Assembly: GCA_900313515.1 (NCBI GenBank)
Contig: OMRK01000018.1
Coordinates: forward strand, 1-35,453
Direction of reading: 5' to 3'
DNA: 35,453 bases
Source: an uncultured bacterium
GTDB lineage: Bacteria > Vulcanimicrobiota > Xenobia > Xenobiales > Xenobiaceae
The notes below the pieces were generated by a model. The model saw only the letters and a program-made list of their open reading frames with translations. It was not told the origin of the DNA and searched no databases. Both the position numbers and the translations under genes were made by a program. This document shows positions 13,584 to 21,867 of the stretch, in pieces; positions within the stretch are counted from its first letter, which is position 1; each line of letters opens with the position of its first letter.

Positions 13584-13964
13584 CTAGAGCTTCAAGACTA
13601 ACATCAAGCTGATAACCAAAGCGTAAATGGTCAGCGATTCAATGAAGGCCAGCGACAAGATGGCCATTGTTTGCAATTTACCGGAGGCTTCGGGGTTGCG
13701 GGCCATTCCCTCGAGGGCTTTAGCGGCCGCATTGGCCTGGCTGAAGCTACCAGCTGCCGCCGCGATAGCCAAAATCAAAGCGGCGCTCAGAGCGTAAACG
13801 GCCTTCGTCCCTAAGAAGGTTCCCGTATCTTCGCCAACGGGTGCAGTTGAGGCCTCGGCGACGGCCTCTGTAGCCGCAGCTTGGGCAAAGGCTGGTAGGG
13901 AACAGAAAATTCCCACTCCCAACACAGATAAGAAGCTGAAGAACTTTCCAAGCTTAGAATACAT
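13584..13964 (-). CDS. atpE: F-type ATP synthase c subunit with signal peptide and Na+-type site
   Basis: A 126-residue rotor-ring subunit; most c subunits have 70-90 residues. Residues 1-27 look like a signal peptide (basic start, hydrophobic core, AFA before QA), then about 25 Ala/Glu-rich residues, then the two-helix hairpin with the polar loop R89-N90-P91. The ion site reads Q76 in helix 1 and E109, S110, Y114 in helix 2. The spacing of Q and E (33) is the same as Q32/E65 of Ilyobacter tartaricus, whose Na+ ligands are Q32, E65, S66 and Y70, so Na+ coupling is likely; the usual threonine after the serine is L111 here. ATG at 13964 is chosen because GGAGG lies 5 bases upstream; an ATG 12 bases earlier would place that site inside the gene. 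Confidence 0.93.
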
Positions 13965-14055
13965 CTTTTCCTCCATGGGGCCACCGGTGGCAGCCCTATT
14001 CTTTTTTTTGAAAGTTTTCCGGCAGGCCAGGCTTGAAAAGGCCGGCATGCTGTGT

Positions 14056-15108
14056 TTACTCTTCCTCACTAACCACGACATGGCTAATGTAATTCAAAGT
14101 TAAAAGGCAGAAAACCAAAGCCTGCACAAAGCCAGACAAGGCCCCTATGCAGGTAACAAAAAACGACACCCCCCACAAAGCTATGCTGAAAACTACTCCC
14201 TGGATGGCCGCCATGGTTGACGAATTATGCACGGCCGGGACGATCGAATTAAAAAAGTCTGTACCAACAGACAAGAGTGTACTTTTAACTACGTGCTCGC
14301 CGTTAATATTACCATAAAGACGGAAGGAGAGGGAAACCAAACGTCCCAACTCTTCAATTATATTCAGACCGCAGAAAAGTACGGTTAGCAGGGGAAGTAT
14401 TGAATAGCGCAAGGCCGCATCAAACTTGTTCCATAAATCGGGAACGGGGTGTAGGTAATGACTCAACCAGACAAAAAAACCCTTAAACAGCCCGTGGCGT
14501 TCCTCAAAGTGCGGCAAAATCGGATCCGTACCGGCTTCCGGATTGCTCTTGGCTCGTTCGACCGCCATCTCTTTGGCGACTTCCTCGGCTTCCTTACGTT
14601 CCGCCTCAGTATCTCCGCTAATTTTCCTCTTTAGCCCGTAAAAGGTGAATCCTACTACCGTAACTATAGCCAAAGCCAAGGTGGTGTTGTAGGAGGCCGT
14701 AGGAGGCTCCAAAAGAGCATGCTCATGGCCTTGCACGACAGCCTTAGGGACTGGCAGGAGTCCAGCCCAGTTGGACATGAGGACGAAGAGAAAGAGCGAC
14801 ATAGCAAAAGGAACATAACGTTCCCCTTGCTCTCCCATAAATGACTGGGCAAAACTGCCTACAAAATCGTAAACACTCTCTAAAAACGCTCCCAAGCCGC
14901 TACTGGGAACTGCGCCTACACCCTTGCGCCCAAACCAAGCCACAGCCGTCACGGCGAAAATTACCAATACTGTGGATAAAGACAACACAATGTTGCCAAA
15001 GCTGGCAAAACCCTGCCCCCATGCGCTTGCCGAGCTAGCTGCCTCGGTGGGCACTGAGGCCAAAATGTATACCCCTGACGCTACCCCTCTCAACGAAATC
15101 CAGCCCAT
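14056..15108 (-). CDS. atpB: F-type ATP synthase a subunit
   Basis: A 350-residue membrane subunit that forms the ion half-channels against the c ring. The essential arginine is R263 in [14 protein letters not shown], preceded by IIEELGRLV. Several membrane helices are clear, including 100-118, 141-158 and 236-252, and the C-terminal helices end in [18 protein letters not shown]. Between helices, residues about 160-207 form a charged, mainly Glu/Lys/Arg stretch that is longer than in typical a subunits and should face the cytoplasm. ATG at 15108 has a GAGGAAG site 7-9 bases upstream. It lies 91 bases before the chosen atpE start. Confidence 0.95.
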
Positions 15109-15462: not shown

Positions 15463-15960
15463 AATGTGTGCCAGTTACTCTGTTTTAGTGGTCAATCCTG
15501 ATTCAGAATCTGTTCGCTTGGCCTTTCTGGTTGGTTTTCTGATTTTCTGAGGTAGGCCGGTGTTTGGGCTAATGTCTGTGGAGACATCTGCCTCCATACT
15601 ACCGGGCGGCATGTCTACGGTCGGAGCTAACGTCTACAGTGCACGAATCAAAATGAATACATAGGATAATCCTTATCGAAAACATAAGCGCGATTCTAAA
15701 CTTAACCTTACTAAAAACGCGGCCCGCTTTCGTGTTTTTGTGAGGTATTGCCTGCTGCATTGGCGCTATTAAGGTGCTCTTGTATGGGGAAGCCTGCTGG
15801 TATTCATCACTTACCATGTGTGCCCAATCCATCTCCGCCCCCGCAAGACATCTAAACAGCTTTTAGCATTTTTTTTTACAATAGCCCTTTACTATGAAAA
15901 AATTATAAGTTATATAAGGATAACTACACTAAGGATTTAGTTTGGAAGAGGAGCTTTGCT
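15463..15960. other. Divergent intergenic region between atpI and the hydrolase gene
   Basis: This 498-base stretch separates two divergent transcription units. A promoter for the plus-strand gene is visible near its right end. I found no convincing -35/-10 pair for the atp operon on the minus strand. Two small minus-strand frames occur: 77 codons at 15599-15832 and 40-45 codons at 15475-15612, the latter ending 12 bases before atpI and very basic. Neither has a normal ribosome site or a recognisable family, and neither looks like the two-helix AtpZ protein sometimes found here. A run of nine T lies at about 15870-15878. Confidence 0.5.
15888..15916 (+). promoter_or_regulatory. Sigma-70-type promoter for the hydrolase gene
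   Basis: TTTACT (15888-15893), a 17-base spacer and TATATA (15911-15916) give good matches to both boxes. The start site would fall near 15923, leaving a leader of about 38 bases that contains the ribosome site GAGGAG, 7 bases before the ATG at 15961. The same -35 sequence and spacer length recur in front of the next plus-strand gene. Confidence 0.6.
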
Positions 15961-18066
15961 ATGGATCAGATTAATGGTTTGGCTGGACTTGCTAGTCTTT
16001 TTGGCGCAGGCCAGATGAGCGCTGGGTTGTCTATACCCAATCTTTCCGGTGGCTTTGGCCTGGACTTCAGCGATGATGTCAGCATTTCTGGAGCCAAGGC
16101 TATAACTGAGGCCGGTAATTTCCGCACTAACGCTGCTTTAGCCGATCCCGATATCTTGGCTGAGATCAACGATTTGGAGGACGAGGCCGAGGCCGAAGAT
16201 GCAAAGGCTGATGATGCCAAAGTGGGTGCCGACGGTAAGAAGACTGAGGGCACCGATGCTGCTTCCGATGCCAAGGGCGATAAGGATGCCAAGAAGCTTA
16301 CCGATGAGCAGAAGAAGTATGTTGAGAACAAGCACAAGCAGGATGCCACCCAGGGTGATATCGATGACTTGACTACCGAGGCCACAGATCTGGAGAAGCA
16401 GATTGAAGAGGCTAAGGCCAGCGGTGACACCGATAAAGCTAATAAGCTTCAGAAAGAGCTTGACGATGTAAATGAGAAGCTTGAGGCCAAGAAGAAAGAG
16501 CTCGATAAGCTCGTGAAGGAAGAGGATGAGCTGGAACTCAGTCCTGAGGAGAAGCTTGAGGCTCTTCAGAACGAGATGGATCAACTTGACAGCGAACTTG
16601 AAGCCAAGAAGGCCGAGCAGGCCAGATTGCAGGCAGAGGCAGCCAAGTTGCAGGAGGATATCGAGGCAGCCAAGGCTGAGGGCGATCAGGAGAAGGTAGA
16701 GGAGCTGCAGGGCGAGCTTGATGGCGTAAACAGCAAGCTGGACACCTTAGACAGCGAGATCAATTCTTTACAGAGCCGCAAGGATAGTCTGCAGAACAAC
16801 ATCGATGCCGCTCAGGCGGAAGTAGATGCTAAGAAGGCTCAGGAAGCGGCCGCAGCGGCAGCTAACCAGGCCCAGAGTAGTGGTGGCTCCGGTGACGGTG
16901 GCTCCGGTAACAACGGTGCTGTGAACCAGGCTGGCGAGAGCGGCGGCAGTGGCGGCAATTCCGGCGGTTCCAATGGTGTGAACAATGGCGGCAATGGCGG
17001 CGGTGGCAACGGCGGTAGCGGCTCCGTGGGCGGCTCCGGTGGCGGTGGTAGCGTGGGCGGTTCCGGTGGTAGTGGCTCCGTGGGCGGCTCCAGCAAGGTC
17101 GGTCAGGTTGACACCTCCAAGTGCTCCGACGAAGATTTAGCCAAGGGTATCGATGAGTTCTTGGCCTCCAAGGGTTCGCCTTGTCCCGAGGGCACTGGTG
17201 CTCTCTTTGTAGAGGCTGGTAAGAAGTATGATGTAGATCCGTTGGTGTTGGTATCTATTGCTGGTCAGGAAACTCAGTGGGGCCAGACCGGAATTGGTAT
17301 GAATGGTATGTTGGGCGTGGGTGCTTATGACTCCGATCCTAACAACGCTACCAGGGATCCCAAGTTCGCTGGTGTGGCTAACCAGATCGAGCGTGGTGCC
17401 GAAACTTTCGCTAACATCCGCGCGGGCAACGGTGGCTCAGCTTCCGACTCAATCGCCGATCAGTTGAAGGCCGTCAACAACCATGAAAACGGAAACCAGT
17501 ACTGGTGGGCTAGCGATTCCAACTGGGATGAGGGCGTACAGAGCATTTATGAGAATCAGGTAGCCCCCTTCATCTTAGAGCATGTTAATGGCGCTGAGAC
17601 CGTCGGTGGCGACGTGGCTGGAATGCTTTCCGATGCCGATTCTATGATTGGTATGTGCCGCGGCAACGGCGACTTACAGAACTACATTAACGAGAATGGC
17701 TCTGGTCTTAGCACGTATGATCCCTGGTGCGCAGCCTTCGCTACTGCTGTGGAGAATAAGCACGGCAATATGGACTTCAGTCAGTTGGATAACTGGAACT
17801 ACTGCCCCAGCATTAAGAACTGGGCCGAAGGTCAGGGCACGTGGCATCCCAACGGGAGCTACAATGCTCAGCCCGGCGATATGCTCCTCTTCGACTGGGA
17901 TTCTGACGGGTGCGCGGATCACGTTGGTATAGTGGAGAGTTACGATCCCTCTACGGGCGTGTGCATAACCCTCGAAGGTAACACTTCCGGTGACGCTAGT
18001 GGCTCTCAGGTGGCCCGCAAGGAGCGTAGCTCTTGCATTATGGGCTTCATTAGCTCCAACGTTTAA
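15961..18066 (+). CDS. Two-domain peptidoglycan hydrolase: glucosaminidase-like plus CHAP, no signal peptide
   Basis: A 701-residue modular protein. Residues 1-65 are Gly/Ser/Ala-rich with no signal peptide or membrane helix. Residues about 65-120 are acidic and about 120-298 a long coiled coil (Lys/Glu/Asp/Leu heptads). A Gly/Ser/Asn linker spans about 303-380. Residues about 384-537 resemble lysozyme-like glucosaminidases (FlgJ type), with E437 in AGQETQWG as the probable acid. The C-terminal part, about 550-700, is a CHAP amidase/endopeptidase domain: C590 in DPWCAAFA, H654 in ADHVGIVE, and E672/N674 in LEGNTSG. It should cut both glycan and peptide bonds of the wall. Lysine is mostly AAG and glycine GGT/GGC, suggesting strong expression. 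How it leaves the cytoplasm is not evident. GAGGAG sits 7 bases before the ATG. Confidence 0.88.
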   Translation: MDQINGLAGLASLFGAGQMSAGLSIPNLSGGFGLDFSDDVSISGAKAITEAGNFRTNAALADPDILAEINDLEDEAEAEDAKADDAKVGADGKKTEGTDAASDAKGDKDAKKLTDEQKKYVENKHKQDATQGDIDDLTTEATDLEKQIEEAKASGDTDKANKLQKELDDVNEKLEAKKKELDKLVKEEDELELSPEEKLEALQNEMDQLDSELEAKKAEQARLQAEAAKLQEDIEAAKAEGDQEKVEELQGELDGVNSKLDTLDSEINSLQSRKDSLQNNIDAAQAEVDAKKAQEAAAAAANQAQSSGGSGDGGSGNNGAVNQAGESGGSGGNSGGSNGVNNGGNGGGGNGGSGSVGGSGGGGSVGGSGGSGSVGGSSKVGQVDTSKCSDEDLAKGIDEFLASKGSPCPEGTGALFVEAGKKYDVDPLVLVSIAGQETQWGQTGIGMNGMLGVGAYDSDPNNATRDPKFAGVANQIERGAETFANIRAGNGGSASDSIADQLKAVNNHENGNQYWWASDSNWDEGVQSIYENQVAPFILEHVNGAETVGGDVAGMLSDADSMIGMCRGNGDLQNYINENGSGLSTYDPWCAAFATAVENKHGNMDFSQLDNWNYCPSIKNWAEGQGTWHPNGSYNAQPGDMLLFDWDSDGCADHVGIVESYDPSTGVCITLEGNTSGDASGSQVARKERSSCIMGFISSNV
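17020..17100 (+). repeat. 27-bp in-frame tandem repeat in the Gly/Ser linker
   Basis: Three units of 27 bases start at 17020, 17047 and 17074, encoding GSVGGSGGG, GSVGGSGGS and GSVGGSSKV. The first and third share an identical 18-base core (17020-17037 and 17074-17091). They form the end of the flexible linker between coiled coil and catalytic domains; such repeats often vary in number between strains. Confidence 0.8.
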
Positions 18067-18606: not shown

Positions 18607-21600
18607 ATGGACTTTTTGAACTCCTTTGTCCGCAATAGGGGCAGTCGGTGCTGGCTCAGCCTAGGGCTGTTTGCAGCAATGTTTATGCTGGCTGTCCTTA
18701 TTTCTGGCTGCGGAAGTTCTGGCGGCCACGGTAGTGGTGGCTCCAGTGCGCAGTCGTTTTCCGACGTCATTTTCCGTTTCAAGACTATGGACAGCAAGGT
18801 AAGTGCCCGTTCTTTACCAGATGGCACCAATACCGTGCGTTTTACCGGTTCCACCAGTTCTCGTGAAGTTTTGTACGGTCCTGTCAGCAAGGCTTGTGCT
18901 CCACAGATCACCTTGGAAGAGGTCTCTGTTAAAGTTACCGGCTTTGTTCTTCAGTATCTGAGCAGCGATGGTGCTCTCACTGGGCTTTACCCGGTGGCCG
19001 TAAAAATGAATCTTTACGGAGACACTTATGTAGATATCGGCGACTGCCCCGATCTCGCTTCGGTGATTGCCGACATCAGTGTTAGCCCTTCCAGTATTGG
19101 TGATTTAGCTATCGGTTACAGTGAGAGTTTCACTGTCACAGCTACTCTCATCGATGGCCAGGTTGTGGATCTTACCCCTTACATCACCTTTACCAGCTCC
19201 GATGAGAGCATAGCTACTGTGTCCGTCAATGGCGTCGATGGTGCCAAAGTTACCGGTCAGGCCGGTGGTACAGCAGTCATTTCGGGCAGCGTTTTGGGCG
19301 TGACTATCCCCGATCTGAGCGTCACTGTGGATCCCGGTGTAGTCGAAACTGGCGTACTGATCAGTCCTGACAACTTCGTTTTGGCTCCTGGAACTACGCG
19401 GAATGCTAATGCTTTCGTACAGTTCTCCAACGGCACTACCAAGGCCTTGGATTCCAGTGTTGTTACTTGGAGCGTTGAGCCGGCTTCCGGTCTGGTTGAG
19501 CTTACTCCCAGTAATTCTGGCGATTCCTCCTGCTCCTTGTTGGGCGATAGCAATGCTAAAGAGGGTGACTCTGGCCTTCTCAAGATTAATGTGAACACCA
19601 AGGCTGGCAATACCTTCGAGGCCCAAGCCACAATCACTATCAGCAATAAATTGCCCAAGTCTTTGGCTTTGACTAACGATACCGTTGGCACCACCAGACA
19701 GGGTTTGGAAGAGAACCAGATCTGGGATTCTGGTGAATACAGTAGCACCAAGTGCACTGCAACTGCTACTTACACCGATGGTAGCACTGCCGACGTTACC
19801 GATCAGGTTATATGGGCTAGCTCCAATACGACTGTGGCCGATTTTGATCCCGCTTCACCCGGCAGGTTGCAGGGCGCTTCCGAGGGAACTACTTCGGTTA
19901 CTGCTACTTTAGGTGATGTTGCTTCTCCAGGAATGGATATAACTGTCGTTTCGGGTACTGCTGCCGATTTCAAAATTGAGACCGATCAGGATCCGGAGAC
20001 TGGTATCGTTCTGCTTTACAATTCGGAACTTGGCTCCGAGCAGATTCCTGTTGCTGTAAGTGCCTGGGCTCTGTATCCCAATGGCGAGAAGGTGTATCTC
20101 AATACTACCAACTCGGCAGTGGAGATTGTCGATACCAACGGTGCTGTGCATACCGATCTGGTGAATGTTACCGATGGCGATAAGTGTGTAAAGTTGGCTG
20201 CTGCCAAATTGTCTCGTGACTCTCTCAATCTGCGCTTCACCTACGAAGGCGTCCAGTCTGATCTGATTCCCTTAAGCATTAAGGATCGTGCTCCTGAAGT
20301 TACCTATTTCTCTCTGGTTGATACCACTACCAAGACCAGATGGCCTCTTGAAAGTAGTACTGACAACGAGATCGAGTTACCTATTGGCCGTGCTTACTAC
20401 GTAGATGTCCAGGGTGTTTGGAATGATGGTACAAAGGGCGATTTCTCCCAGTATTATGCCATCTGGGATACTGAAAATAAGCCTACTGGTGCAATCGACG
20501 GTGAGGATGGCAAACCTATTCCTATTACCGTTACGGGTACCAAGGTAGGAGAAAATCCGGAAATAGACGAGGAGTACAAGGATTGGTTCTTGGCTGGTAA
20601 TGCAAGTTCAATTGTCACCAGTCGCGCCAATATTGACGGATATGTAGGAAAGTCGATTAAGGTTACGTGTAAGGGCATCTACCGCACTGTCAGCGAAGGT
20701 CAGACCATGTTTGAAGTTAAGATTACTTCTGGCAAGCCGGCTATTGACAGCTATGTGCCGCTGTATCCTTATATTGATTACCGTGGTAAAGAGTGTGAGT
20801 CATATGCTTTCGTCCTCTCCGGTGATAATGTTGACGGAATAGATTTTGAGAACATTGAATCTAAGTACGTTGGTTCTACGATGGATGACCACAAGGCCTA
20901 TATAGATGGGGCTGGTTCTGAAGAGGAAAAAGCCAGGAGACAAGCCGAGGTAGAGGATGGAATTGCCCAGTGGGCGAGCATTTTGAGCAGGGTTAACAGC
21001 GATGATGTTGTGTTCTCTGTAGCACGTGGCACATACTGGAACGTTTTGGGCGTAGGTGATGAGTCTCTTAAAGAGACCCAAGCAATCAGGGCCATCTATT
21101 CGGACTATAGATTCTTGACCGATGAAGAGGGCAAGTTCTCCTCTGTAAGCGATGTCAAGCATACCGAACTGGTGACCGGAGAAGCGCCTATCATGCAGTT
21201 GGATCAGGAAAGCTATGAGCCGCTGACCAGTAAGTTTATGCTGGCGAAGACCGGCGATGGTTATCCTAGCGTTACCAAAGAGGATCAGTATGCTGGGCGT
21301 AACGAGCTGGGGCAGACGGGTGTGGTAAAATTTGACTGCACCGATGCCGCCGATGGCAAGTATGGTAAAACTGTTGCCGGCGCCGAGGGCGATGAGTGGC
21401 AGTCCTACCATGTCTCTCCTGGCGAGTTCACGATCTACTTGGATAGGCCGCGCATCCTTGGGCCGGTCGAACTTGTCGATGATAAGTTGCTTCCTGCTCC
21501 CAAGGTTTACCTCGAAGGTAGTTCTACCCCGTTGGAGGCTACCTCGCGTGAAGCTGACGGTACTCCCGTCTATGAGATGGAGCGGGGACAGAAGTTCCAG

Positions 21601-21867
21601 TTCTATTATCCGACTCCCGAGCTTAGCGATAAGGATAATCAGGAGTTCCTGAAGACTACCGGTTCGTTCGTCAACCCCGTTGACAACCAGGGTAACGAGA
21701 TCAAAGTGCTTGCTTATCTGGGCAATCATGCGGTCAAGGACTACTACCAGGTGCAGAGTGGAGATGGCATTGTTGGTAAGAAAGCCACAGTGACTATTTC
21801 TCCTGACTCTCTTATGTATTCGAACTACACCTTTTTCATTGCATCCATCAGGATCAAGGTAAAGTAG
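18607..21867 (+). CDS. Large surface lipoprotein with bacterial Ig-like (BIG2) domains
   Basis: A 1086-residue protein starting with a lipoprotein signal: basic N-terminus, hydrophobic core 16-33, and lipobox LISG-C35. A Gly/Ser tether (36-50) follows. Residues about 156-241, 248-345 and 350-450 look like three Ig-like repeats of the BIG2 type (patterns 'VTATLIDGQVVDLTPYITFTSSDESIATVS' split over strands, then 'GAKVTGQAGGTAVISG'; the third has 'TATATYTDGSTADVTDQVIWASSNTTVADFDP'). The remaining 630 residues are beta-rich and unassigned. The residue after the lipidated cysteine is Gly, not Asp, so an outer-membrane location is plausible in a diderm. It probably acts in surface display, adhesion or wall binding. 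AGGAGG lies 6 bases before the ATG, and a strong terminator follows, so it is transcribed alone. Confidence 0.85.
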   Translation: MDFLNSFVRNRGSRCWLSLGLFAAMFMLAVLISGCGSSGGHGSGGSSAQSFSDVIFRFKTMDSKVSARSLPDGTNTVRFTGSTSSREVLYGPVSKACAPQITLEEVSVKVTGFVLQYLSSDGALTGLYPVAVKMNLYGDTYVDIGDCPDLASVIADISVSPSSIGDLAIGYSESFTVTATLIDGQVVDLTPYITFTSSDESIATVSVNGVDGAKVTGQAGGTAVISGSVLGVTIPDLSVTVDPGVVETGVLISPDNFVLAPGTTRNANAFVQFSNGTTKALDSSVVTWSVEPASGLVELTPSNSGDSSCSLLGDSNAKEGDSGLLKINVNTKAGNTFEAQATITISNKLPKSLALTNDTVGTTRQGLEENQIWDSGEYSSTKCTATATYTDGSTADVTDQVIWASSNTTVADFDPASPGRLQGASEGTTSVTATLGDVASPGMDITVVSGTAADFKIETDQDPETGIVLLYNSELGSEQIPVAVSAWALYPNGEKVYLNTTNSAVEIVDTNGAVHTDLVNVTDGDKCVKLAAAKLSRDSLNLRFTYEGVQSDLIPLSIKDRAPEVTYFSLVDTTTKTRWPLESSTDNEIELPIGRAYYVDVQGVWNDGTKGDFSQYYAIWDTENKPTGAIDGEDGKPIPITVTGTKVGENPEIDEEYKDWFLAGNASSIVTSRANIDGYVGKSIKVTCKGIYRTVSEGQTMFEVKITSGKPAIDSYVPLYPYIDYRGKECESYAFVLSGDNVDGIDFENIESKYVGSTMDDHKAYIDGAGSEEEKARRQAEVEDGIAQWASILSRVNSDDVVFSVARGTYWNVLGVGDESLKETQAIRAIYSDYRFLTDEEGKFSSVSDVKHTELVTGEAPIMQLDQESYEPLTSKFMLAKTGDGYPSVTKEDQYAGRNELGQTGVVKFDCTDAADGKYGKTVAGAEGDEWQSYHVSPGEFTIYLDRPRILGPVELVDDKLLPAPKVYLEGSSTPLEATSREADGTPVYEMERGQKFQFYYPTPELSDKDNQEFLKTTGSFVNPVDNQGNEIKVLAYLGNHAVKDYYQVQSGDGIVGKKATVTISPDSLMYSNYTFFIASIRIKVK

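Follow-up and report, generated by a model that had tools for sequence, protein, structure and literature searches.

How does a bacterium release a wall-cutting enzyme that carries no recognisable export signal? The question is raised by an open reading frame (ORF) on contig OMRK01000018.1 (GenBank assembly GCA_900313515.1) of an uncultured member of the Xenobiaceae, class Xenobia, phylum Vulcanimicrobiota (also Eremiobacterota); the whole 35,453-nucleotide stretch, called the window below, forms contig 98 of a draft genome of 2.35 Mb (88.8% complete). The ORF encodes a predicted peptidoglycan hydrolase, and we consider it probable that this protein is cargo of a flagellar-type type III secretion system (T3SS) that has lost its filament and motor and has been kept as a protein exporter. 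An exporter of this type reading the N-terminus is favoured because signal peptides are lacking throughout the hydrolase family, because the N-terminal module is also found on proteins of the Peptidase_M91 family (M91 proteins), and because the T3SS occurs without flagellin or MotB. Among the exits proposed by a first-pass annotation (lysis, a holin-like route or a dedicated secretion system), the dedicated system is thus the one that we favour and would specify as a flagellar T3SS, and lysis and holin-like release are disfavoured.

The hydrolase and its missing signal peptide

The hydrolase ORF (15961-18066, + strand) begins with an ATG that is preceded by a strong ribosome-binding site, GAAGAGGAGC. 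Its features are listed below, together with the evidence for each; G001 and G004 denote two related genomes.

15961..18066, + strand: putative secreted-type peptidoglycan hydrolase, 701 amino acids (aa), without signal peptide (ORF, Pfam, N-terminal analysis)
15944..15955, + strand: ribosome-binding site GGAAGAGGAGC directly 5' of the hydrolase ATG (sequence)
15961..16146, + strand: N-terminal module, aa 1-62, uncharged, rich in Gly, Ser, Ala and Asn, putative export signal, common to the G001 and G004 hydrolases and an M91 protein of G004 (profile search, composition)
16072..16098, + strand: recurring motif DDVSISGAK (D-x-V-x-[LI]-S), aa 38-46 (motif matrix)
16288..16875, + strand: coiled coil, about aa 110-305 (weak SMC/Rad50/filament-type matches only)
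16876..17112, + strand: Gly/Ser/Asn-rich linker, about aa 306-384 (sequence)
17113..17598, + strand: GH73 glucosaminidase domain, catalytic Glu438 (Pfam, alignment, profile, Foldseek)
17614..18063, + strand: CHAP (NlpC/P60-like) domain, Cys590, His654, Glu672/Asn674 (Pfam, PHROGs, alignment, Foldseek)

The protein thus runs from a probably disordered N-terminus through an acidic stretch, the coiled coil and the Gly-rich linker to a GH73 glucosaminidase and a CHAP amidase/peptidase. The GH73 match (PF01832, aa 415-532, E 6.6e-5) lies under Pfam's own cut-off; the catalytic E438 falls in the segment AGQETQWG, of which AGxET is invariant among the aligned relatives, and a profile of the domain retrieves a solved phage wall hydrolase in the PDB (E 8.9e-6). 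The CHAP match (PF05257, 2.9e-10 with the domain excised) is over the cut-off, the same Pfam family is found in six of six members, and C590, H654 and E672/N674 are likewise invariant. The two domains match endolysin PHROGs at 4e-22 and 4e-19, and a Foldseek search with an AlphaFold model of moderate quality (predicted local distance difference test, pLDDT, 77; predicted template modelling score, pTM, 0.55) shows resemblance to NlpC/P60 proteins, CHAP endolysins and AtlE/LytB. Judged from these matches and residues, the ORF is a peptidoglycan hydrolase with two predicted wall-cutting domains, the active sites of which are intact. The first-pass annotation had described two such domains joined to a coiled coil and a strong codon bias, and both descriptions hold: the codon adaptation index (CAI) of 0.788 is the highest of the 20 window genes, and the effective number of codons (Nc, 43.7) is the second lowest.

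Signal peptides were assessed by hydropathy (Kyte-Doolittle, 11 residues) and charge. The first 20 residues of the hydrolase contain no Lys or Arg, and hydropathy at its N-terminus peaks at 1.60, a value below those of the exported neighbours (2.07-2.83 for the lipoprotein, TolC, and the RND permease and adaptor), in agreement with the absence of a Sec or Tat signal that had been noted from the sequence. An upstream alternative start that would add a signal, the possibility raised against that claim, is ruled out: the frame is open for just 21 codons 5' of the ATG, and these include no ATG, GTG or TTG.

The hydrolase family occurs throughout the phylum, with 2-5 copies per genome and lengths of up to 2040 aa; its members contain coiled coils and variable extra domains (lytic transglycosylase, phage tail lysozyme), and some form tandem arrays. 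No homologue across the phylum has a signal-peptide-like start among those that could be assessed, the exact start being doubtful for some in GC-rich drafts and contig ends truncating a few loci. Since the trait is kept by the whole family, the lack of a signal peptide does not reflect mis-annotation. A paralogue of 965 aa in the same genome (L035:12832-15729, contig 190) is also without a signal peptide and lacks the motif.

An N-terminal module common to hydrolases and M91 proteins

An alignment of seven hydrolase N-termini was too divergent, and smaller alignments were taken instead. A profile of four N-termini (A4), searched in 19 genomes, gave one match besides its own sources, at E 0.0035 per genome: a 616-aa protein on contig 86 of G004, whose C-terminal part contains RTX repeats (3e-30) and a Peptidase_M91 domain (1.5e-25; Pfam name "Effector protein"). 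A widened version (A5) reached a second M91 protein, in G001 (E 0.02). In enteropathogens, NleD-type M91 proteins act as T3SS effectors (PMC13325838). In the profile search of its own genome, the hydrolase is the sole protein with a close N-terminal module; the two M91 proteins encoded there resemble it in composition only, with the motif in addition in one of them (contig 262), the other scoring low. The search for proteins sharing the first 60 residues, which the first-pass annotation had proposed, therefore yields a close module on the M91 protein of a sister genome and leaves the hydrolase alone in its own.

Strong M91 matches are nearly absent elsewhere among 148 genomes of the phylum and are concentrated in two flagellin-less families of genomes, f1 and f11. 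Two M91 genes occur in the genome studied here, one in G001, nine in G003 and three in G004; in f11 there are one in G024, eight in G028, seven in G031 and two in G035. The genes of G028 and G031 stand in tandem arrays of eight and seven, respectively (L116 and L123). Both M91 proteins of the present genome (L111:2913-4712, contig 262; L112:8496-10502, contig 28) are effector-like and without signal peptides, and a similar-looking gene of 400-460 aa lies 3' of the M91 gene in L111, L113 and L086.

The motif was scored with a matrix of nine columns built from seven hydrolase sites only (D-x-V-x-[LI]-S...). Scores of at least 8 are reached by 8 of the 12 M91 N-termini outside the G028 and G031 arrays, compared with 8 of 159 control ORFs, two of these eight coming from hydrolase loci (Fisher p 3.5e-7); if the arrays are included, the count is 9 of 27 M91 proteins (p 8.7e-5). 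In composition-preserving shuffles, p<0.05 is obtained for 8 of the 27 M91 N-termini and for 9 of the 159 controls. The composition of residues 2-30 is also distinctive: Ser, Thr, Asn, Gln, Gly, Pro and Ala (STNQGPA) make up a fraction of 0.67 in the hydrolases and 0.62 in the M91 proteins, against 0.40 in 156 control ORFs, and Lys plus Arg 0.02, 0.05 and 0.12, respectively. The flagellar FliE and FliK proteins of the same genome, the counterparts of which are exported by the flagellar apparatus in other bacteria, have STNQGPA fractions of 0.72 and 0.79. At the level of sequence, the N-terminal module is portable between different putative cargo (hydrolases and M91 proteins), its close match being confined to sister genomes.

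Flagellar-type export machinery

The genome encodes FlgB, FlgC, FliE, FliF and FliG on contig 106; FliK, FlgF, FlgG and a FliA/WhiG sigma factor on contig 170; and FliP, FliQ, FliR, FlhB and part of FlhA on contig 195, with the remainder of FlhA on contig 88. FliM and FliN are found in relatives. FlhB, FliP and FliF of this genome, and FlhA of G001 and G028, score above the curated cut-offs of the flagellar equivalogs, and the sigma factor is over the cut-off of its subfamily. The system is not of the injectisome type, as the SctV and SctU equivalogs remain under their cut-offs where the flagellar models (FlhA/FlhB) exceed theirs. Flagellin_N, a model which normally detects FlgL as well, is matched in none of the eight f1 genomes but above cut-off in 60 other relatives. 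MotB is clear in the flagellin-positive G010 and G012; none is found in the present genome and most f1 and f11 genomes, and the matches in G005, G028 and G031 are weak. No promoter motif common to the hydrolases and the flagellar genes was seen by eye.

A full-length second gate was found in neither f1 nor f11. All 12 genomes of these families that were examined encode, however, a separate protein that matches the cytoplasmic domain of FlhA alone (FHIPEP positions ~326-656). During flagellar export, cargo and chaperones dock on this domain (PMC7911332), and a separate copy of it suggests that cargo is handled differently. The solo protein is encoded at L034:799-2316 (contig 36 of the present genome), L157:5243-6652, L158, L159, L160 and L162; in G003, G024 and G028, an RNase-PH-like gene comes next. 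Directly 3' of FlhA itself, a similar small, probably helical protein of ~112 aa is encoded in both families (L057:10880-11221; L164:5793-6131), the L057 copy having no Pfam match.

The proposed route would be as follows. The hydrolase, which its codon usage (highest CAI in the window) predicts to be made in quantity, would be recognised by the flagellar export gate through its N-terminal module, threaded N-terminus first and unfolded into the FlhA/FlhB/FliPQR gate, and refolded beyond the inner membrane. The coiled coil and Gly-rich linker may then space or anchor the two enzymes, which would cut glycan strands and stem peptides, more likely in the wall of neighbouring gut bacteria than in that of the producing cell.

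Several points weigh against export by this route. The motif was seen by eye before the matrix was built, and its statistics describe rather than prove. It is mostly missing in the G028 and G031 M91 arrays, in the contig 190 paralogue and in several hydrolases outside f1; the N-termini are of low complexity, and part of their likeness may be composition. FlhA is present in 137 of the 148 phylum genomes, so that its co-occurrence does not discriminate and was set aside as an association test; hydrolase homologues occur in flagellin-positive genomes as well. The genome is a fragmented draft in which FlhA is split over two contigs, although it is intact in relatives. Delivery could end in the periplasm.

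Alternative routes and known systems

The same flagellar T3SS may instead export the hydrolase as a tool that opens the cell's own wall for growth of the rod and hook, a reading that we regard as unlikely. Its precedent is Salmonella FlgJ, a GH73 hydrolase by which the wall is breached to let the flagellum through (PMC4752226), and the rod genes are kept in the present genome; the T3SS-linked lytic enzyme EtgA is a weak profile match. The copy numbers, the large sizes, the coiled coils, the extra hydrolase domains and the tandem arrays, however, exceed the needs of a rod, and no hydrolase locus read adjoins flagellar genes. A FlgJ-type N-terminal rod-binding domain is not among the Pfam matches of the hydrolase listed up to E 1, FlgJ itself not having been searched for in the genome. 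The several copies per genome and the extra hydrolase domains suit a secreted weapon better than a rod tool akin to FlgJ.

Release by lysis of some of the cells, with the hydrolase acting as an endolysin or in the manner of a bacteriocin and perhaps derived from a prophage, is less likely again. The matches to endolysin PHROGs and to phage hydrolases in the PDB speak for this reading; the setting of the hydrolase, however, is cellular rather than phage. Its neighbours are mreB, murA, an ATP synthase operon, a Big_2 lipoprotein and an RND pump, with TolC also nearby, and no phage or holin-like gene is recognised in the 35-kb window, as the first-pass annotation had stated for phage genes. The family is phylum-wide with paralogues, and the order of hydrolase followed by Big_2 lipoprotein recurs in G001 and G004 (31-37% identity). 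Nor would any lysis model need an N-terminal module common to M91 proteins.

18607..21867, + strand: Big_2 lipoprotein, 1086 aa, with signal peptide, downstream neighbour kept in two related genomes (Pfam, locus comparison)

Side observations concern the window and hydrolase loci of relatives. The ORF for ATP synthase subunit c (window positions 13584-14081) encodes 165 aa, of which the c domain covers only aa 98-161, so that either the start is misassigned or the N-terminus is considerably extended. In G001, a 390-aa coiled-coil-like protein with the motif DTFSLTSQK, possibly a further cargo, is encoded between the hydrolases and the lipoprotein (L036:6238-7410). Two proteins without signal peptides are encoded near a hydrolase in G033 (L045:16170-18941); they contain endonuclease/phosphatase and phospholipase D domains, and ADSVSLGG stands close to the start of the first.

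Least probable is that another dedicated exporter (a type I, type IV or type VI secretion system, T1SS, T4SS or T6SS, or a contractile injection system) reads the N-terminal module: the RTX repeats of M91 proteins are typical of T1SS substrates and TolC and an RND pump lie near the hydrolase, but T1SS signals are usually C-terminal, the C-termini of the hydrolase and M91 proteins are unrelated domains, and a search of this genome for a Peptidase_C39/HlyB-type gene gave none, which also disfavours a double-glycine leader, the T4SS, T6SS and contractile systems not having been searched for.

It has long been asked how a flagellum can turn into a secretion system, and few living intermediates are available. 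We judge the chances to be even that host-associated Eremiobacterota turned the flagellum into a dedicated secretion machine, in a step separate from those of Buchnera and the injectisome lineage, by losing the filament and motor, gaining a soluble second FlhA docking domain and placing an export module on hydrolases and M91 proteases. If the proposed export is correct, these uncultured rumen and gut bacteria would offer an independent, testable case of a filament-less, motor-less flagellar exporter with its own cargo families and a short portable export signal open to testing, as well as a means for poorly characterised gut bacteria to attack the cells around them or to make contact with their host. 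In the open literature, subscription papers not being covered, we found no account of T3SS cargo from the Vulcanimicrobiota; Vulcanimicrobium, the cultured member of the phylum, is reported to lack flagella and flagellin (PMC9758169).

The catalytic domains are those of GH73 and CHAP endolysins and autolysins (AtlE, LytB, phage hydrolases), from which the window hydrolase differs in its cellular context, in having no holin in view and in its export-like N-terminal module. Like FlgJ (PMC4752226), it combines a GH73 fold and the absence of a Sec signal with wall cutting that would be tied to a flagellar system; unlike FlgJ, it has no visible rod-cap domain, adds a CHAP domain, a coiled coil and a linker, and belongs to a family with several copies per genome. 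The NleD-type M91 effectors (PF14891; PMC13325838) have relatives that are probable cargo in the same genomes, the G004 member sharing the hydrolase N-terminal module, whereas the window protein is a predicted wall hydrolase and not a protease. The 'Myxo' type III systems of the Myxococcales, which are argued to translocate proteins (PMC3459982), are stripped down and without motility parts, as is the system of the present genome; in this lineage, however, FlhA, FlhB, FliP and FliF score as flagellar, FliG, FliM and rod genes are kept, and the loss of filament and motor is apparently independent. Parallels are also seen in Buchnera aphidicola, which keeps its flagellar T3SS as an exporter, and in Campylobacter and Yersinia, the flagellar T3SS of which export non-flagellar proteins (PMC3459982). 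The likeness lies in basal-body and export-gate genes kept without a filament and in cargo without signal peptides; the window system differs in its phylum, its gut and rumen lineages, its multi-copy putative cargo (hydrolases and M91 proteins) and its solo FlhA cytoplasmic domain.
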